Source: Novosphingobium aerophilum (GTDB taxonomy: Bacteria; Pseudomonadota; Alphaproteobacteria; Sphingomonadales; Sphingomonadaceae). Taken from it: a DNA stretch of 64,000 nucleotides. Below the pieces are notes generated by a model that worked only from the letters and a program-made list of their open reading frames with translations, was not told the DNA's origin and searched no databases. Positions 50,669 to 59,195 of this stretch are shown piece by piece. Where the stretch lies: positions 62,001-126,000 of the forward strand of contig NZ_JACLAU010000003.1 of NCBI RefSeq assembly GCF_014230305.1, given 5' to 3'. How positions within the stretch are numbered: the stretch's first letter is position 1; each line of letters opens with the position of its first letter. Both the position numbers and the translations under genes were made by a program.

Positions 50669-51807
50669 GCGGTCTGCTCGACCGCTATCACGCGCTCGTC
50701 GCCGCGGGCGAACTTCGCCCCGATGCCGAGCAGGCTGCAGCCGCAGCGCGCCTGGCCGTGTTGCAGGACGAGTTCGAAAGCAGCAGCGCCCAGCCGCAGA
50801 CGGTCGGACTGCTCGGCCGCTTGCTCGGGCGCAAGCCCTCGCCTCCGCCGCGCGGGATCTACCTGTGGGGCGGGGTGGGCCGCGGCAAGTCGATGCTGAT
50901 GGACCTGTTCCACGCCACCCTGGACATTCCCGAAAAGCGCCGCGTCCACTTCCACGCCTTCATGCTCGAGGTGCACGCGCTGCTCCGCGAGGAGCGCAAG
51001 AAGGAAAGTGGCGATCCGATCCCGCCCGTCGCCGCCGCCCTCGCCCGCGACCTCAAGGTCCTGGCCTTCGACGAGATGGTGGTGAACAACAGTGCCGACG
51101 CGATGATCATGAGCCGCCTGTTCACCGCGTTGATCCAGACCGAGGGGGTCACGATCGTGACGACCTCCAACCGGCGGCCGGGCGAGCTTTACAAGGATGG
51201 GCTCAACCGCGAGCACTTCCTGCCGTTTATCGACCTGATCGAGCGCGAGCTGGACGTGCTGCCGCTCAACGGCCCCACCGACTATCGGCTGGACCGGCTC
51301 GGCGGGATCGAGACCTGGCACGCACCGGTCGGCCCCGAGGCAACCGCCCAGGCCCGCGAGGCCTTCTTCCGCCTGACCGACTACCCGCCCGAGGACAGCG
51401 CCAACGTCCCCTCGGCGGAGCTCGACGTGGGCGGCGGACGCAGCCTGTTCGTGCCCAAGAGCCTGAAGGGCGTGGCGGTCTTCAGTTTCAAGCGGCTCTG
51501 CGGGGAAGCCCGGGGCGCGAGCGACTATCTGACGGTCGCGCGGACCTATCACACGGTGATCGTGGTCGGCATTCCGCAGCTCGGTGCCGAGCTGCGCAAC
51601 GAAACCGCCCGGTTCGTTACCCTGATCGATGCGCTGTACGAGAACCGGGTCAAGCTGATCGCCACCGCCGCGACCCGACCCGAGCAACTCTACGCCTCGG
51701 CAGGCGGAGGGGACGACAACGGCCGGTTCGAATTCGACCGCACGGTCAGCCGCCTGATGGAAATGCAGAGCGAAGCCTACATGGCGCTCGGCCATGGCGA
51801 GGACTGA
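50665..51807 (+). CDS. zapE: Cell division protein ZapE (AFG1-like ATPase)
   Basis: AAA+ ATPase of 380 residues related to mitochondrial AFG1/LACE1. It has Walker A in YLWGGVGRGKSMLMDLF, Walker B in VLAFDEMVV, and sensor elements at VTTSNRRPGELYKDGLNREH. ZapE destabilises or remodels the Z ring in E. coli. The ATG overlaps the thioesterase stop, forming a three-gene unit with sdhB, which ends at the terminator near 51900. Confidence 0.94.
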   Translation: MSGLLDRYHALVAAGELRPDAEQAAAAARLAVLQDEFESSSAQPQTVGLLGRLLGRKPSPPPRGIYLWGGVGRGKSMLMDLFHATLDIPEKRRVHFHAFMLEVHALLREERKKESGDPIPPVAAALARDLKVLAFDEMVVNNSADAMIMSRLFTALIQTEGVTIVTTSNRRPGELYKDGLNREHFLPFIDLIERELDVLPLNGPTDYRLDRLGGIETWHAPVGPEATAQAREAFFRLTDYPPEDSANVPSAELDVGGGRSLFVPKSLKGVAVFSFKRLCGEARGASDYLTVARTYHTVIVVGIPQLGAELRNETARFVTLIDALYENRVKLIATAATRPEQLYASAGGGDDNGRFEFDRTVSRLMEMQSEAYMALGHGED

Positions 51808-51895
51808 GGCGAGGACTGATTCGCGCAGCGCGGGCTAAAGGCAGACGCTGTTGCCAGCCAACTGGCCTTCCGCCCCGCGCCATTCCCGAAGCCCA

Positions 51896-51926
51896 GAAAA
51901 AATCACCCCGTACTAGCCGGGGTGAT
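51896..51926. terminator. Bidirectional terminator between zapE and the EAL transcript
   Basis: A perfect 9-bp stem (ATCACCCCG and complement, 51902-51910 with 51918-51926) and a 7-base loop. On the minus strand it is followed by a run of six T, a canonical end for a transcript arriving from the EAL gene. On the plus strand the T run is weaker. Confidence 0.88.
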
Positions 51927-52038
51927 CTTGTTTGCAAGCCATCGAGCGTGCCTGGTTAGGCTGCCTTCCGGCGAATCGCCGGTTTTCGGTGCCCGTGATT
52001 TCCGATTGCCGTTTGAGAGACTCTCTAAACAGCGGAAA

Positions 52039-52080
52039 TCATGCAGGGTCGCCGAGAAACCACTTCCAGAAGTTCCACAT
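52039..52080 (-). CDS. Possible Trp-rich 13-residue peptide
   Basis: Starting at the ATG at 52080 this reads MWNFWKWFLGDPA, then stop: three Trp and two Phe in 13 residues, amphipathic. A perfect GGAGG ends eight bases before the ATG (52093-52089). An in-frame ATG at 52095 would give 18 residues (adding MEARD) without a clear ribosome site. It lies 63 bases after the EAL gene stop and about 110 bases before a minus-strand terminator, so it could be the last cistron of that mRNA. I know no family. It may be chance, although the ribosome site and its position are striking. Confidence 0.4.
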   Translation of the reverse strand: MWNFWKWFLGDPA

Positions 52081-52143
52081 GTCACGAGCCTCCATTGGTA
52101 TGGACGACTCGTCGTTAACACTAACGGCTGTGGTTAACAAGAT

Positions 52144-54396
52144 TTAACGCTTTTGCGCTCTCGCGGTGCCCGGCTCGGCCATGGTCGCATAGCGCGACAA
52201 CAGCAGTTCCAGCGGTTCGGGCTTGGCGATGTGGTACCCTTGCCCAACATCACAGCCGAGTTGCCGGAGCAGTTCGAAGGTGGAGAGGTCCTCCACCCCT
52301 TCGGCCACGACGATCTGGCGCAGGGCATGGGCCAGATTGATCGTGCTGGCGACAATATGGCGTTCGCGCTCGTGGTGGACGATCTTGGACACGAAGCGCC
52401 GGTCCAGCTTGAGTTCGTCGCTCGGCAGTTCGGCGAGATAGGACAGCGAAGCCTCGCCCGTGCCGAAATCGTCGATCGACAGGCGGAAGCCCATCGAGCG
52501 CAGCGCCTGAAGGTTGCGAATAGCCGCAGGGCGATTGCACATGCCGGCCGTCTCGGTGACTTCCACCGTGAGCAAACGGCAGTCGATCCCACGGCGCCGG
52601 ACGATCTCGGCAACCGAACTGATCAGGGACGGCTTGTCCACCAGTTGCGCCGAGAGGTTGATGCTCACCTGGAATGTCGGCCCCAGGGCATTGAAGCGCT
52701 CAGTCGCCGTGATCGCCTGGTCGAGCACCCAGTAGGTCAGGGCATCGATGCGGCCAGCCTGTTCGGCCTGGAGGATGAATTCATCCGGCCGGATCGGGCC
52801 GCGCACCGGATCGTTCCAGCGGATCAGGGCCTCGGCCCCGCTGATCCGCCCTTCCCGATAGTCCCACTGCGGCTGGTAGGCGAGCCAGATGTCGCCGTTG
52901 CGCATGCCCTCGTCGATCCGGGTCAGCAGCGAAAGCTCCCAGGCGGCGTTGGCCAGGCGCTGCGCCTCGAACAGTTCCACGGTCCGGCCGCGCTTGAGCG
53001 CTTCGGTCGCGCTGGCCACGGCCGTGTTGACGCGGGTCAGGCCATCGAACTCGTGATTGCGTTCGAGCCCGAAGTGAACATTGGTGTCAAACACGTGCTG
53101 GCCGACCAGCAAGGGTGCCGCGAACAGGGCGCGGAGACCCTCCAGGTTCTCGATCTGCTGATCGAGCGGCCGGGTCGGCTCGATCCAGGCGAACAGCCCG
53201 CCTTCGCCATGGCAGATGTCCCGAGCGCCGCAACCGACCGCGAAGCGGCGGGCGATCTGGCGGGCGCATTCCCCATGCAGGTCGGCGGGAAGGGTCGCCA
53301 GGAACTCCTCGTAGCGACCAATCACCGCCACGATAACATCGTGCTGAGGCGGAAGAGGCGTTTGGGTGAGAGTCAGAAAGTTTGGCAGACCCGAACGGCT
53401 GGTCTGCAGCACAGCTTGGCGCCACTTGGTCCAGACGCGGATCCCGGCAAAGCTTGCGAGTTCGACTATGGCAGCCGCCGGATTGCTGACCACCCCAACC
53501 TGATCGAGCAGGGCGGGACCGATCAGAATGTTGAAGGCGATTACCGCATAGGCCATGCGCCGCAACCGCCGGCTGCGGACCTGCTGCGTCATGAAGATCA
53601 TGACGGTGCAAAGCACGATGGGCACAAACCAATCGATATCGATCGGCGGCCCTTCGCGGAGCGCCTCGATCAAGGCGATATCGAGAAAAACGGGGTCGAC
53701 ACGACGATGCGCAAAATAACCCACCAAGTCCGAGAACCCGGACCGCGGCTCTTTGACGATAACGGTCCGTCCCGTTAAAGCGCCCTGTGATCCAGCACCA
53801 GACAGCAAAACGTCGGAAGAAACCATTCGAACGGTCTGGGGATCGACCGTGAAGTCGGGACGAACCGTATCACCAGGACCGCCCGACCGATTGGCAATAG
53901 CCGCGGCCAAACTTGGGTAGGTTTTACCGCCCAACTGAGCCTCGACTACTGAAGAGACCCCATATCCTAGGAAATTGGAGACGAACCCAGATACCACCAA
54001 GCGAGATTGTGGAACCACGCGCTCTGGCGGCAAAGCGATGCTGCCTTCATCGAACCGGTCGAGCTTGGCAAAGCGGGCCACGAGTGAGAGCTTCGGACCA
54101 AGCCGGTCAATCGTACCCTGCAATTCGGGGGACGCCGTGTAGGTCTTCCGGTCCAGATAGATGTGCTGCGGATGCTGCGCGGCGACGGCATTCAGAACGC
54201 GCGCCACTTCACGATCGGAGGCGTTGACCCCGGCGTCCATCGTCACCAGCACCACCGACTGGGGTGCGGGCTTCTGGCCAAAGCGATAGCGGGTGTTCCA
54301 GTACCCCTGGTCCAGCGGCTGGGCGAGCGTGATCAGGCCGCAGAACATCGCGACCAGCGTGGAGATCACCAGAGGTTGTTTCAGGTACGCCCGCAT
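52144..54396 (-). CDS. CHASE2-like sensor with EAL c-di-GMP phosphodiesterase domain
   Basis: A 750-residue membrane signalling protein. An N-terminal helix is followed by a periplasmic CHASE2-like region (about residues 30-245, opening FGQKPAPQSVVLVTMDAG) and two or three helices (WFVPIVLCTVMIFMT, YAVIAFNILIGPALL). A degenerate GGDEF follows (GEGGLFAW in place of the active motif), then an EAL domain from about residue 500. Phosphodiesterase residues look complete: Glu522 in EALIRW, Asn in INLSAQ, Glu in VEVTET, Asp642-Asp643 in DDFGTG, and AEGVED. It should degrade c-di-GMP. It lies 124 bases after the XrtA-cluster amidotransferase on the same strand. Confidence 0.9.
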   Translation of the reverse strand: MRAYLKQPLVISTLVAMFCGLITLAQPLDQGYWNTRYRFGQKPAPQSVVLVTMDAGVNASDREVARVLNAVAAQHPQHIYLDRKTYTASPELQGTIDRLGPKLSLVARFAKLDRFDEGSIALPPERVVPQSRLVVSGFVSNFLGYGVSSVVEAQLGGKTYPSLAAAIANRSGGPGDTVRPDFTVDPQTVRMVSSDVLLSGAGSQGALTGRTVIVKEPRSGFSDLVGYFAHRRVDPVFLDIALIEALREGPPIDIDWFVPIVLCTVMIFMTQQVRSRRLRRMAYAVIAFNILIGPALLDQVGVVSNPAAAIVELASFAGIRVWTKWRQAVLQTSRSGLPNFLTLTQTPLPPQHDVIVAVIGRYEEFLATLPADLHGECARQIARRFAVGCGARDICHGEGGLFAWIEPTRPLDQQIENLEGLRALFAAPLLVGQHVFDTNVHFGLERNHEFDGLTRVNTAVASATEALKRGRTVELFEAQRLANAAWELSLLTRIDEGMRNGDIWLAYQPQWDYREGRISGAEALIRWNDPVRGPIRPDEFILQAEQAGRIDALTYWVLDQAITATERFNALGPTFQVSINLSAQLVDKPSLISSVAEIVRRRGIDCRLLTVEVTETAGMCNRPAAIRNLQALRSMGFRLSIDDFGTGEASLSYLAELPSDELKLDRRFVSKIVHHERERHIVASTINLAHALRQIVVAEGVEDLSTFELLRQLGCDVGQGYHIAKPEPLELLLSRYATMAEPGTARAQKR

Positions 54397-54520: not shown

Positions 54521-56416
54521 TCAGGTGATACCAAGCCGATCGAGCGAACGATCCAGCATCATCAGTTGCCACAGCAGCCGACCATGATCGCGCTGCCCGG
54601 CAATGTGGGCCTCCGCGATTATCCCTAGTCGAGCGGTATCGAACCAGCCCGTGCGGGCCAGCGGGGCGCTTCCCGCGATGGCTCGCGCGGCGCCGGCAAG
54701 GGGGCCGCGAAACCACGCGCTGATCGGGGTGACGAAGCCCTGCTTGGGGCGGAACAGGATGTCATCCGGCAGGTAGCGGCGCATTGCCGCCTTCATCAAC
54801 CATTTGCCCTGTCCCCCGCGCACGCGCAGCGCCTCGGGGAGGCCCGCCGCGAACTCGACCAGGCGATGATCGAGCAGCGGCTCGCGCGCTTCGAGACTGA
54901 CCGCCATGCTGGTCCGGTCGACCTTGGTGAGGATATCGCCCGGCAGCCAGAAACGCAGATCGGCATAATGTGCGCGGTCCAGCCCCGAACGGGCTGAGGC
55001 GCCCTGCATCATGGCGATGAGCGGTTGTTCGGCGCGGTAGTCGCCCCGCAGGCGGAGGAAGCCCTCGCTGAACAGACGGTCGCGCGCCGCCGGATCGTTG
55101 ATCGCCAGGGCGCGCGCATAGGCCGCCTCCCCCGGTTCGGCGAGCGCCAGCAGGGTGGTCTTGGCCCGCAGCGGCCGGGGAGCCCAATCGGCCTTGGGGT
55201 AAAGCGCGCCCAGCGTGCCGAACAGCCCGGTCCGCACCCCGGCCGGAAGGAGCCCGCGCAGCCGTTCCTCGTGATGGTGGAAGCGCTGTCGGCGATACCC
55301 GCCGAAGGCCTCGTCCGCCCCGTCGCCGGACAGCGCCACCGTCACGGTCTCGCGGGCGAGCTGGCAGACCCGCCAGGTCGGCAGGGCAGAGGCATCGGCA
55401 AAGGGCTCGTCGAACATGCCGACCAAATCGTCGGCATGTTCGAAATCGTCGGGCGAAACGGTCCTGGCCTGGTGATGGGTGCCGAACTGGCGCGCCACGC
55501 GATCGGCATAGCCCGTCTCGTCCAGTGCACCGACATCGAAGCCGATCGAGCAGGTGCGAACCGGCGTGGCACTCGCCTCGGCCATCAGGGCCACCACGCT
55601 CGAGCTGTCGACCCCGCCCGAAAGGAACGCGCCCAGCGGCACGTCGGCGACCATGCGCGAGGATACGGCCTGGCGCAGGAGATGAAGCAGTTCGGCCTCG
55701 AGATCGGCCGGCTTGCCGCGCAGGCGCTCGGCAAAAGACAGGTCCCACCATTGCACGGGCCCCGGCAGAGGCGCTCCGGCCCGCAGCAGCAGCGAATGCC
55801 CGGCGGGCAGCTTGTGGACCCCGGCCAGGATCGAGCGGTGATCGGGAACATAGCCCCAGGCCAGGTAATCCTCCACCGCCAGCGGATCGATCTCGCGGCG
55901 CAGCAGGGGGTGGGCCAGCAAGCCCTTCAGCTCGCTGGCGAAGGCCAGGCTGCCATCGCTGAGTGGGACATAGAACAGGGGCTTCACGCCGAACCTGTCG
56001 CGCGCCAGCAGCAGGGTCCGTTCGGTCAGGTCATAAAGCGCGAAGGCGAACATGCCGTGCAGGCGGGACAAGCAATCGCGGCCCCACTGCTGCCAGGCGG
56101 CCAGGATGACCTCGCTGTCCCCGTCGGTGCGAAACGTGGCCCCCAGCGCCCGCAGCTCGGCCCGCAGCTCGCGGTAGTTGTAGATCTCACCGTTGAACAC
56201 CAGCATGGCCCGGCCATCGACGGAGGCCATCGGCTGCGGCGATCCCGCCACGTCGATGATCGACAGGCGGCGGTGACCAAGCCCGACCCCAGGGGCGATC
56301 CAGACACCGCCTCCGTCGGGCCCGCGGTGCACCAGGGCATCGCACATCCGCTCGATCCGGAGCGGATCGACAGGCTTGGGCGTGTCCAGGTGGAAAAGGC
56401 CGGCGATGCCGCACAT
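54521..56416 (-). CDS. Asparagine-synthase-like amidotransferase of the XrtA cluster
   Basis: A 631-residue protein that begins MCGIAGLF, with the N-terminal nucleophile Cys2 of a class II glutamine amidotransferase (ALVHRGPDGGGVW, then FNGEIYNYREL). An asparagine-synthase ATP-binding domain follows with FLSGGVDSSSVVALM and LSGDGADEAFGGY. It matches the exosortase A system-associated amidotransferase type, thought to modify the exopolysaccharide (an amide on a sugar acid is possible) rather than make free asparagine. ATG at 56416 is 9 bases after xrtA. Confidence 0.92.
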   Translation of the reverse strand: MCGIAGLFHLDTPKPVDPLRIERMCDALVHRGPDGGGVWIAPGVGLGHRRLSIIDVAGSPQPMASVDGRAMLVFNGEIYNYRELRAELRALGATFRTDGDSEVILAAWQQWGRDCLSRLHGMFAFALYDLTERTLLLARDRFGVKPLFYVPLSDGSLAFASELKGLLAHPLLRREIDPLAVEDYLAWGYVPDHRSILAGVHKLPAGHSLLLRAGAPLPGPVQWWDLSFAERLRGKPADLEAELLHLLRQAVSSRMVADVPLGAFLSGGVDSSSVVALMAEASATPVRTCSIGFDVGALDETGYADRVARQFGTHHQARTVSPDDFEHADDLVGMFDEPFADASALPTWRVCQLARETVTVALSGDGADEAFGGYRRQRFHHHEERLRGLLPAGVRTGLFGTLGALYPKADWAPRPLRAKTTLLALAEPGEAAYARALAINDPAARDRLFSEGFLRLRGDYRAEQPLIAMMQGASARSGLDRAHYADLRFWLPGDILTKVDRTSMAVSLEAREPLLDHRLVEFAAGLPEALRVRGGQGKWLMKAAMRRYLPDDILFRPKQGFVTPISAWFRGPLAGAARAIAGSAPLARTGWFDTARLGIIAEAHIAGQRDHGRLLWQLMMLDRSLDRLGIT

Positions 56417-56425
56417 GAGGCCGTC

Positions 56426-57973
56426 CTAGCGCCCGCCCGCGATGCGGTCCATCCACGGCGCCACCGGACCGGCAGCCTGCCGGAAGGCGGCGACCTGGCC
56501 CTCTGCCGAGGCGTCGGGGCGACCTTCGGCGGACAGGATCAGCATCATCGTCGGGCGTTCGCGCAACAGCAGACGGTCGGCGATGTTGGCCAGTTTGAGC
56601 TGCATGTTGCTGCCGGTCAGCAGGTCACCGGTGCGGTAGTAGGTCACCGCCAGCCGCTCGACCTTGCCACGGCCCAGCAGGCGCTCGCTCTTCGCATCGA
56701 CTTCGGCCGGGCCCTCGCCCTGCCAGGCCCAGCCGCTGTCGGGCACCAGGGCCCCCTGGCCGAAGCCGCCCGCCTCGCGGCCCTCGGCCTGCCCGCTGTA
56801 CAGCGCCACGAACACGTCCACCGTGCGGCCCTGCCCGTCCTCATAGCGGCCAAGCAGACGATGATCGGCACCCGTAGCGCGCGGCTCCCACCACAGCAGC
56901 GGACGATAGTCGGTGCGATGCCAGCCGGGCACCGTCGGCAGATCGATCCGGCCGGGCAGACTGGCCTCCAGGCGGTCGGCCGCCAGCGCCCAGCCCTGGC
57001 CCGCCAGCACCAGCGCGGCGGCGATCGCCAGGAGAGGCCCTGCCCCGATCCGTTGCCCGGCAAGCCGATCGAGCAGCGCCGAGGCCTGCAGCGCCGACAC
57101 ATCGACCAGCGGGTCCGTCGGGGCGCGATCGAAGAAGCGCCAGCCCAGTCCCATCACCAGCACGATTACGAAGCCGAAGAAGAACCAGCCGTAGATCAGG
57201 TGATCGATCCCGCCGGCCCGCTCGGCCCCGACATACTGCGCGGCGAAGACCGTGCCCCAGGCGCGCACGCCGTTGGCCAGGACCGGCACCACGATGCAGA
57301 CGATCATGAAGGCGATCCGCCGCGACCAGCGCCGGAAGCAGACGTTGCCGACCAGCGCCCCCAGCGCGATCATGGCCACCAGGAACTTGATCCCCGAACA
57401 GGCCTCGGCGACCTCGAACAGACCGGCCGGGGTATCGATGAACACGCCATCGATTGCCGCCGGGATGCCGGACAGGTGGACCAGGCCGATCGTCAGCGCC
57501 GCCGTGACCATCTGCAGGGCCGGAACCAACTCGTCGCCGAACGGCACGAGGAAGGCCATGTAGGCCAGCGGGAAAGCCAGCCCGGCCGACACTCGCGGCC
57601 CCAGTACCGAGACAACCAGCGCGGCGGGCATCGCCACCGCGCCCGCCTGGCGCAGCAACGAGAATCCGGCGAAGGCACCGAGCACCCAGAGCAGTTGCGC
57701 CGCCGCGAACAGGATCAGACCGGGCCACCAGCCGGACGGGGTCAACCGGTGCAATTCCGGCCAGCGCTGAGCGACCAGCCAGGCCAGGATCGGCGGCACC
57801 AGCAGAATGTGGTTGTAAGTCGAGGAATCCCACCACTGCCCGGCCATGGCCGCCCAGTCCGAGCGATAGATCAGGATCAGCGCGGCGATCCCCGCCGCCA
57901 GCCAGATCAGCGGGCGACGCCAGGCGATCGGAATCTCCACCCGCGAAGACGCGGCCGTCAGGTCAAGCGGCAT
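56426..57973 (-). CDS. xrtA: Exosortase A with C-terminal EpsI domain
   Basis: A membrane transpeptidase-like enzyme (515 residues) that cuts and sorts PEP-CTERM proteins. About eight helices fill residues 20-300. The catalytic triad is clear: Cys192 in EACSGIKF, Arg237 in LANGVRAWG and His258 in GGIDHLIYGWFFF. From about residue 330 a soluble EpsI-like (DUF3485-type) domain is fused on (LPTVPGWHRTDY, VDVFVALYSGQ), involved in exopolysaccharide handling. ATG at 57973 chosen; it overlaps the glycosyltransferase stop by 11 bases. A predicted substrate is encoded at 38005. Confidence 0.96.
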   Translation of the reverse strand: MPLDLTAASSRVEIPIAWRRPLIWLAAGIAALILIYRSDWAAMAGQWWDSSTYNHILLVPPILAWLVAQRWPELHRLTPSGWWPGLILFAAAQLLWVLGAFAGFSLLRQAGAVAMPAALVVSVLGPRVSAGLAFPLAYMAFLVPFGDELVPALQMVTAALTIGLVHLSGIPAAIDGVFIDTPAGLFEVAEACSGIKFLVAMIALGALVGNVCFRRWSRRIAFMIVCIVVPVLANGVRAWGTVFAAQYVGAERAGGIDHLIYGWFFFGFVIVLVMGLGWRFFDRAPTDPLVDVSALQASALLDRLAGQRIGAGPLLAIAAALVLAGQGWALAADRLEASLPGRIDLPTVPGWHRTDYRPLLWWEPRATGADHRLLGRYEDGQGRTVDVFVALYSGQAEGREAGGFGQGALVPDSGWAWQGEGPAEVDAKSERLLGRGKVERLAVTYYRTGDLLTGSNMQLKLANIADRLLLRERPTMMLILSAEGRPDASAEGQVAAFRQAAGPVAPWMDRIAGGR

Positions 57974-59195
57974 CGCACAGCGCTCCGGATGAGGGGAATC
58001 CCAGCGCGGCGGCCAGCGGCGCCAGCACGGCCGGCCAGGCATGGTGCTGCTCCACGAACCGCCGGGCGGCGGCGCCCATGGCCTGGGCCGCGGGCCGGTT
58101 GGCGATCAGGGCCATGGCCGCGCGGGCCATGGCCGCATCGTCGTCGGCCACGGCCAGTTCCACGCCGGCGCGCGCCGCTATGCCGGTGGCGGCGCCGGGA
58201 CTGGCGACGACCGGCAGCGACATCGCCATGGCTTCGAGCACCTTGTTCTGGATCCCACGGGCGATATCCAGCGGGGTCAAGGCCATGTCCGCCCCGCGCA
58301 GCCATGGCCGGACATCGGCGACGGCTCCGCGAACGCGGCAACCGTTGAGCCCGTCCAGCGCCAGGACCGCGCCCGTCGGTCGCCGGCCCACGATCTCCAG
58401 GCTCGCCGCCGGGAAGACCTGGCGGATGACCGGCATGATGCGGGTCGCGGCGCGCACGGCTGCGGCGACATTGGGGGGATAGTCCATCTGCCCGGTGAAG
58501 ATCAGCCGCGGGCCCTCGGTCCCGGACAAGGCGGGCTCCGGCGGGACCTGCTCGGGATCGTACCAGGCGGTATCAACCCCGTTGCCCATCGCCGTCACCG
58601 CACCGTCAACCCCGTGAGGCAGTCGTCGGCGGAGCAGGTCCGCCTCTTCCGCGCTGACCAGCACGATCAGCCCCGCGCGCCCGACGAGCCGGGCTTCCTC
58701 GGCGCGCAGCAGGCGATCCTCGCGGGCATAGAGCCAGTGCCGCACTCCCCCTACGCCGGCGGCATAGGCCTCGAACTTGGCGGAATCGACGTCGACCAGA
58801 TCGATCACCACGCGCCCGCCGAACCCCTCGGGCACATACTGGCCCATCTGGCCGGAGAACACGTAGATCGCCGAGACCGGGCGCGTGGCGAGGACCCTGG
58901 CCACATAGCTCTGCAACCGCGCATCGGCGAAAGCGGTCAGGCTGACGGGCAGGCCCTGGGCCAGCGCGGCGAGGCCCGCGACCGGCAGAGGCCGGTTGCG
59001 CCGCACCAGGCTATGGCTCGCCGCCAGCTCGGCCAGGGCCGGTTCGTGTCGCAGGTCGTCCGGGTCATCCGCAAAGCAGGCCACATGCACCGGCCCCAGC
59101 TCGGCCAGGCGACGCAGCACGTGGTGCGAACGGATCTTGTCGCCGCGATCGGGCGGAAACGGGATCCGATGGGCAATGAACAGGATCTCGCTCAT
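57963..59195 (-). CDS. XrtA-associated glycosyltransferase (GT-B, GT4-like)
   Basis: A GT-B glycosyltransferase of 410 residues. It begins with FIAHRIPFPPDRGDKIRSHH, the opening of the TIGR03087-type exosortase-associated transferase. The donor-binding half has LIFTGQMDYPPNVAA, then ASLEIVGRRP and the acidic EX7E-like region around GIQNKVLEAMAMSLPVVAS. Predicted to add a sugar to the lipid-linked exopolysaccharide. The start is an ATG at 59195, four bases after the FemAB gene. Confidence 0.92.
   Translation of the reverse strand: MSEILFIAHRIPFPPDRGDKIRSHHVLRRLAELGPVHVACFADDPDDLRHEPALAELAASHSLVRRNRPLPVAGLAALAQGLPVSLTAFADARLQSYVARVLATRPVSAIYVFSGQMGQYVPEGFGGRVVIDLVDVDSAKFEAYAAGVGGVRHWLYAREDRLLRAEEARLVGRAGLIVLVSAEEADLLRRRLPHGVDGAVTAMGNGVDTAWYDPEQVPPEPALSGTEGPRLIFTGQMDYPPNVAAAVRAATRIMPVIRQVFPAASLEIVGRRPTGAVLALDGLNGCRVRGAVADVRPWLRGADMALTPLDIARGIQNKVLEAMAMSLPVVASPGAATGIAARAGVELAVADDDAAMARAAMALIANRPAAQAMGAAARRFVEQHHAWPAVLAPLAAALGFPSSGALCDAA

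Follow-up and report, generated by a model that had tools for sequence, protein, structure and literature searches.

The window, by which we mean the whole 64,000-nucleotide stretch of Novosphingobium aerophilum DNA that was analysed, carries on its minus strand a gene for an EAL-domain c-di-GMP phosphodiesterase, followed by a micro-ORF with a Shine-Dalgarno (SD) site, a promoter-like box, a predicted hairpin and a terminator of its own (Table 1). Direct reading of the minus strand from 52080 to 52039 gives ATGTGGAACTTCTGGAAGTGGTTTCTCGGCGACCCTGCATGA, which encodes MWNFWKWFLGDPA and a stop codon; the ATG lies 63 bases past the EAL stop codon (52146..52144). A sequence-only reading of this DNA had delimited the micro-ORF together with its SD site as 52039-52095, and its description (13 codons, a GGAGG at eight bases, 63 bases from the EAL gene) is exact to the base; the T6 terminator that it placed 110 bases on is present as a hairpin and T6 beginning about 112 bases past the stop codon. 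The same reading held that three Trp in 13 residues are unlikely by chance. The three Trp residues are there, but the argument from chance is weaker than it was put: among the 19 ATG ORFs of 7-20 aa in the 64-kb window that are preceded by an SD-like site, two have at least three Trp. Composition alone is a weak guide; the case for the micro-ORF rests on conservation.

Table 1. Features of the micro-ORF locus, numbered by position in the window
Feature	Position	Strand	Basis or remark
Intrinsic terminator, ATCACCCCGGCTAGTACGGGGTGAT + T6	51897..51926	minus	Sequence
Micro-ORF, MWNFWKWFLGDPA	52039..52080	minus	13 codons; counterparts in relatives
Predicted 5' hairpin, SD in 3' arm	52084..52112	minus	Fold -15.9 kcal/mol over 41 nt
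Shine-Dalgarno GGAGG	52089..52093	minus	8 nt ahead of ATG; sequence
Promoter-like TTGTTA - 17 nt - TAACGA	52112..52140	minus	Alignment of 64 loci
TTAA-N6-TTAA pair	52134..52147	minus	Overlaps EAL stop codon and -35-like box; CtrA-like
EAL-domain c-di-GMP phosphodiesterase gene, 750 aa	52144..54396	minus	Pfam EAL E=1.3e-65

The EAL protein is laid out as a CHASE2-like N-terminal region, hydrophobic helices, a GGDEF-like region and the EAL domain. The Pfam CHASE2 match of the window protein is weak (E=0.12, below the cut-off), and two homologues match at E=3.8e-25 and 1.2e-26. The residues that we take to be the EAL signature are present in the window protein and do not vary across an alignment of 11 proteins of which it is one. 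An AlphaFold model of the protein (pLDDT 81, pTM 0.49) matches GGDEF-EAL structures such as 5m3c. Full-length matches in a class-wide EAL search are seen only in the family of Novosphingobium; outside it, the matches begin only at about residue 290.

Just upstream of the EAL gene, also on the minus strand (54521-59195), are genes for an asparagine-synthase-like amidotransferase, an exosortase (EpsH type, DUF3485) and a glycosyltransferase, which likely constitute an exopolysaccharide/exosortase cluster; the arrangement suggests that exopolysaccharide genes are under c-di-GMP control in the window. On the other side, the next gene beyond the terminator is zapE, in convergent orientation. As zapE lies in the examined stretch at 57 of 70 Novosphingobium loci versus none of 82 others, it is placed outside the conserved unit; the micro-gene remains with the EAL gene while the next gene changes.

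Conservation and selection of the micro-ORF

A DNA-similarity search across the micro-ORF gives no match there in 60 relatives or in plasmids. Since the micro-ORF is too short and too diverged for DNA similarity, the EAL gene was used as anchor. Of 195 congeneric genomes searched for the EAL protein, 80 have it at E up to 1e-100; the gene is missing at that threshold from the other 115, and the pair of EAL gene and micro-gene is therefore not essential to the genus. The DNA 3' of the EAL gene was read at 70 Novosphingobium loci, the window included, in a main series that omits five of the 80 genomes (G137, G152, G169, G181 and G207); contig ends make two of the loci (L019 and L028) unjudgeable. 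Every one of the 68 readable loci, again counting the window, has a TTGTTAA box and an SD-like site ahead of a micro-ORF 7-20 codons long. A strict pattern that ignores the peptide sequence (a TTGTTAA-like box, GGAG(G/C), ATG and a short ORF) found 56 of the 68, and the remaining 12 were accepted by eye. In the ORF and the 200 nt flanking it on each side, this peptide-blind pattern has those 56 hits on the proper strand, compared with none on the other strand; dinucleotide shuffles give 0.0. The check proposed in the sequence-only reading, a search of related genomes 3' of the EAL gene for a Trp peptide with a ribosome site, has been carried out and finds a micro-ORF with an SD-like site, though not always with Trp, at every readable congeneric locus.

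The peptides themselves vary, as in MWDFWKWFLGE, MDFGWSIWKWLFN, MIWHYLFR, MSAVNAVIEILRWLFQ and MFSIVWDYLFR. Their length is 7-13 residues in 47 of the 68 forms; W-x-(W/F/Y) is missing in 17, and eight have no Trp, for example MLLRLLFG and MNLLKIMFR. Five more distant Novosphingobium EAL homologues (L264-L268) also have a micro-ORF beside them, three of these (L264, L266 and L267) having been accepted by eye. Contig pieces of two genomes outside the main series, G169 and G207, contain MDLLKILFRK and MLWYIFRGRRA, and in G133, the genome of L028, another contig piece shows the EAL end and then MIGSWSNWLWSMLLG. At some loci about 150-420 nt of extra DNA separate the EAL gene from the micro-gene module, which is nevertheless intact and is on that account regarded as an independent unit. 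One genome (G194; L304, C27) has a second micro-gene, MFKIIWHYLMN, with its ATG near 1294, about 830 bases past the first copy; this second copy has its own promoter box and adjoins a fragment of zapE. The duplication is tandem and partial, and both peptide reading frames have stayed open.

Conservation extends beyond the genus. Searching 249 genomes of the family for the EAL protein yielded 84 places, 81 of them outside Novosphingobium and all 81 read; a Trp-containing micro-ORF lies just 3' of the EAL homologue at 70 of these 81 loci of other genera. The peptide itself belonged to the acceptance criterion here, and one locus (L221) was accepted by eye; the Trp criterion finds 70 of 71 on the correct strand, none on the opposite strand and 2.2 in shuffles. 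The common core in the other genera is (F/I)WDWL(F/L)G, as in MAKRTKQPARGFWDWLMGGGWN and MWDFWNWLFPGKSG, and FWKWFLG of the window agrees with it. By a manual count that includes Novosphingobium, 39 genera have an EAL homologue in the family search, and the micro-gene accompanies it in 36. Across the family the ORFs have 7-42 codons and the core (F/I)-W-(D/E/K/S)-W-(L/F)-(F/L)-(G), preceded in many of the longer forms by a basic N-terminal arm.

The loci of other genera in which the micro-ORF is lacking mostly group together in the phylogeny of the EAL protein: eight of the 11, together with two further EAL genes, form one clade (support 100/99.8). None of the 46 EAL proteins in the tree that have a micro-ORF (13 from Novosphingobium and 33 others) falls within this ten-member negative clade. 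A motif filter dropped three proteins from the tree, two with the micro-ORF (L365 and L366) and one without (L321). After removal of the eight paralogues the micro-gene is present at 70 of 73 loci, with 37 of those 70 absent from the tree. At the three loci of other genera outside the negative clade where a recognisable W-peptide was not found, an IS4/5-type transposase gene comes next (L186), no micro-ORF is seen (L192) or the only ORF is Trp-less and begins with GTG (L217). The micro-ORF-less clade includes a gene from the window's own genome, L319, the second EAL gene there. It lies outside the window (C53:38528-40738) and encodes a full-length CHASE2-EAL paralogue without a micro-gene, followed by an ORF with a sub-threshold amidohydrolase match.

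Searches that do not start from the EAL gene return to it. A profile of the peptide (A3), run over 246 genomes of the order, matches at 46 places; 41 of these lie directly 3' of an EAL homologue (30/30 and 11/16 in two checks); when the genomes that supplied rows to the profile (12 of the 43 matched genomes) are left out, 29 of 33 matches adjoin an EAL gene. Of the five matches away from EAL genes, four are weak, with E of 6e-4 or more, and the fifth lies 15 bases from the end of its contig. The sole match outside the family (G626, E 0.002) does not adjoin an EAL gene, and the profile is insensitive, missing the window's own peptide at E 0.01, so that its silence outside the family is no proof of absence. 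A covariance model that spans promoter to ATG, with the ORF excluded, matched eight of 397 family genomes; six are Novosphingobium genomes in the model or nearly identical to one of its rows, and the two informative matches, G411 and G510, both adjoin an EAL homologue, the peptide of G510 being MWDWLFGGGYWA. The simpler pattern TTGTTAACN{28,52}TGGAGG occurs at 61 places in 59 of the 195 congeneric genomes, several of them chance occurrences to judge by their sequence, and the reversed control occurs in 21 genomes by a manual count.

Codon-level comparison points to selection on the peptide. In 13 hand-chosen close Novosphingobium pairs there are 29 non-synonymous and 39 synonymous changes against 51.7 non-synonymous changes expected if there were no selection (omega about 0.23), and none of 100,000 simulations gave a number as low as 29. 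Eight pairs of other genera, from 12 chosen of which four were dropped for unequal length, have 26 non-synonymous and 25 synonymous changes versus 38.9 non-synonymous expected (omega 0.32, P 4e-5), some of the pairs sharing a member. On this comparison, the amino-acid sequence of the micro-ORF is under purifying selection. Neither an absence of conservation nor equal rates of synonymous and non-synonymous change, either of which would have counted against a coding micro-ORF, was what we found; with its start, SD site and core conserved and with purifying selection in congeners and other genera alike, the micro-ORF is almost certainly translated and functional. The link to the EAL gene, which the sequence-only reading took from position alone, extends well beyond one genome in cross-genus synteny, in the profile search and in the EAL clade. 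Comparison of sequences shows a separate, selected micro-gene that is co-inherited with one orthologous group of membrane-bound CHASE2-EAL phosphodiesterases in the GTDB family of Novosphingobium.

Control elements around the micro-ORF

The promoter-like box between the EAL gene and the micro-ORF is invariant in Novosphingobium, where TTGTTAA and the TA of the second hexamer, 17 bases on, are the same in all 64 aligned loci, and is looser in other genera; a sigma-70 scan of the window does not list it. Its -35-like part overlaps a pair of TTAA motifs. In the account given by PMC6180460, CtrA sites are TTAA-N7-TTAA or TTAACCAT and lie near -35 when activating. The micro-gene loci resemble the CtrA-controlled alphaproteobacterial promoters of that account in that many of them have TTAA pairs spaced by 7 nt near the -35-like box; the pair in the window differs in having a spacing of 6, the consensus being N7. 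Near-matches to TTAA-N7-TTAA (at least seven of the eight letters) are found at 60 of 68 Novosphingobium loci and 42 of 71 other loci versus 3.9 and 6.9 in shuffles, and other spacings are enriched too in Novosphingobium (N6 at 62 of 68 loci, N15 at 55 of 68). The left TTAA in the window (52144-52147) shares bases with the EAL stop codon (the corresponding half is GTTTAG in most loci of the genus); the overlap locks together the end of one gene and a possible control site of the next. The sequence TTGTTAACCAT occurs twice in the window's own genome, neither copy being at the micro-gene, and among the ORFs around both copies, read by eye, none is recognisable as a cell-cycle gene. The motif provides a lead: the micro-gene is possibly under CtrA control.

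Downstream of the box, the SD site is predicted to be sequestered in a hairpin. At least four of the five SD bases are paired with upstream sequence at 62 of 68 Novosphingobium loci and 56 of 71 other loci, compared with 51-52% in shuffles, and the mean fold energy of the 5' region is -13.6 versus -7.8 kcal/mol in shuffles for Novosphingobium and -19.2 versus -12.9 kcal/mol for the others. Covariation of the hairpin gives a mixed picture: it is better than in all 500 shuffles by four of five measures, but the number of pairs changed on both sides is 7 versus 5.3 in shuffles and is matched by 58 of the 500. Sliding the partner by +2 columns gives values that beat the real structure (59 versus 52 both-side changes and 27 versus 25 pair types). 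The MAFFT alignment used (A2) misaligns the 5' hairpin arm in some rows, which is why pairing was also tested sequence by sequence against shuffles. The RNA may start inside the outer stem and so lack part of it; the hairpin over the SD site perhaps limits translation of the micro-ORF.

A terminator-like site is found within 200 nt past the micro-ORF at 45 of 67 Novosphingobium loci and 65 of 71 loci of other genera, the expectations from mononucleotide shuffles being 14.0 and 12.8. In the window, a separate scan lists the inverted repeat on the plus strand only, facing zapE; the hairpin at 51902-51926 is nearly symmetrical and may also serve this convergent gene.

Function of the peptide

The micro-gene looks like an unrecognised partner of the phosphodiesterase. 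That it is a stand-alone gene, and its peptide a partner dedicated to the CHASE2-EAL phosphodiesterase, is a reading to which, judging from comparative sequence evidence, we give an even chance. A promoter of its own, possibly with a CtrA-type site, would set the amount of peptide apart from that of the enzyme, and the SD hairpin would be a brake or switch on translation. The peptide would then act as a small partner of the neighbouring phosphodiesterase, its aromatic core docking at the membrane interface or on the enzyme, and the docking could tune the activity, stability or localisation of the phosphodiesterase and through it local c-di-GMP. A broader proposition, that in one alphaproteobacterial family very small proteins (down to 7 residues) serve a membrane c-di-GMP phosphodiesterase as a dedicated regulatory subunit under separate control, wired to the cell cycle by CtrA and gated in translation by a 5' hairpin, is doubtful but deserves some credence.

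Unlikely is a peptide that belongs to the phosphodiesterase pathway and has another target, such as exopolysaccharide machinery or a polar or cell-cycle system, with co-inheritance for the sake of regulation. The exosortase, amidotransferase and glycosyltransferase genes just upstream of the EAL gene in the window speak for such a target, as does the possible CtrA box, which would couple the micro-gene to cell-cycle or motility control, but the exosortase cluster is known from the window only and the linkage across genera is to the EAL gene only.

It is unlikely that the locus is a dual-function or RNA-level element, that is, a 3'-located small RNA in which translation of the ORF serves chiefly to regulate the RNA itself or the end of the EAL mRNA. 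Such an element could account for the promoter-like box and terminator of its own, for the 5' hairpin over the SD site and for the median of 77 nt from stop codon to terminator stem in Novosphingobium; in the other genera, however, the median distance to the terminator is 22 nt, which leaves little RNA besides the ORF. Selection on amino acids in both sets of pairs and the retention of the FWDWL core across genera despite differing flanking DNA also argue against an RNA-level role, as does the lack of any Rfam covariance match at E up to 1 between positions 51500 and 52500.

A membrane-active peptide (type I toxin-like, lytic or antimicrobial) that has no connection with the enzyme and stands beside the EAL gene by history is quite improbable. 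The peptides are aromatic and often cationic, with a mean net charge of +0.76 in Novosphingobium and +1.77 in the other genera, as would suit this role; yet 40 of the 43 matched genomes have a single A3 match, the peptide accompanies one EAL group and not its paralogues, and on the opposite (plus) strand, where an antisense RNA antitoxin would be encoded, the promoter scan gives only one weak match, at 52013-52042. Type I toxins have a hydrophobic segment that crosses the membrane and takes about 18 residues or more; a type I toxin is disfavoured because the window peptide, at 13 aa, and most Novosphingobium forms (the 47 of 7-13 aa) are too short to span a membrane.

Least likely, and indeed very improbable, is the leader-type peptide that the sequence-only reading had suggested, a trpL-like attenuator in which the progress of the ribosome over Trp codons controls a downstream gene: shortness, Trp content, an SD site and a terminator close by fit it, but a terminator-like site then usually follows (110 of 138 loci) and zapE, the next window gene beyond it, is convergent, the number of Trp varies down to none in the eight congeneric copies noted above, and tails of variable length past the core in many other genera leave no fixed distance to the stop codon.

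Relation to known systems

The sequence-only reading could name no known family for the peptide, and database searches agree with it: neither Pfam nor NCBIfam profiles match any of five longer peptide forms at E up to 1, the window peptide of 13 aa being too small for such a scan, and the Rfam search of positions 51500-52500 gave none. FWDWL and longer core strings were not found in the open-licence literature searched, and a report elsewhere is possible. A survey of c-di-GMP genes covers five alphaproteobacterial orders (PMC9756655); a word search of its main text finds no mention of peptide, small protein, sRNA or CHASE2. Genes of 7-13 codons lie below the reach of ordinary annotation. Few conserved genes of that size are, to our knowledge, known. 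As the same second-messenger enzyme stands beside the micro-gene in 36 of 39 genera, the purpose of so short a peptide becomes directly testable, and if the peptide modulates the phosphodiesterase, it would represent an unfamiliar way of controlling c-di-GMP.

TrpL and peTrpL are leader peptides, which the micro-ORF resembles in size, Trp content, SD site and nearby terminator, and from which it differs in that no gene on the same strand lies just downstream in the window and the number of Trp is not conserved. The neighbouring gene is itself of a known kind, a CHASE2-GGDEF-EAL phosphodiesterase, as indicated by the EAL match in Pfam, by CHASE2 in the homologues and by the predicted fold; the paired micro-gene is the difference. 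Small proteins such as MgrB, which acts on PhoQ, modulate membrane signalling enzymes and are about 30-50 aa long with a membrane-spanning segment. The micro-gene shares with these modulators the tie of a very short product to a single signalling protein of the membrane, whereas its product, at 7-42 aa, is mostly too short to span the membrane in Novosphingobium and has no Pfam or NCBIfam match, and the gene that it adjoins encodes a c-di-GMP phosphodiesterase.
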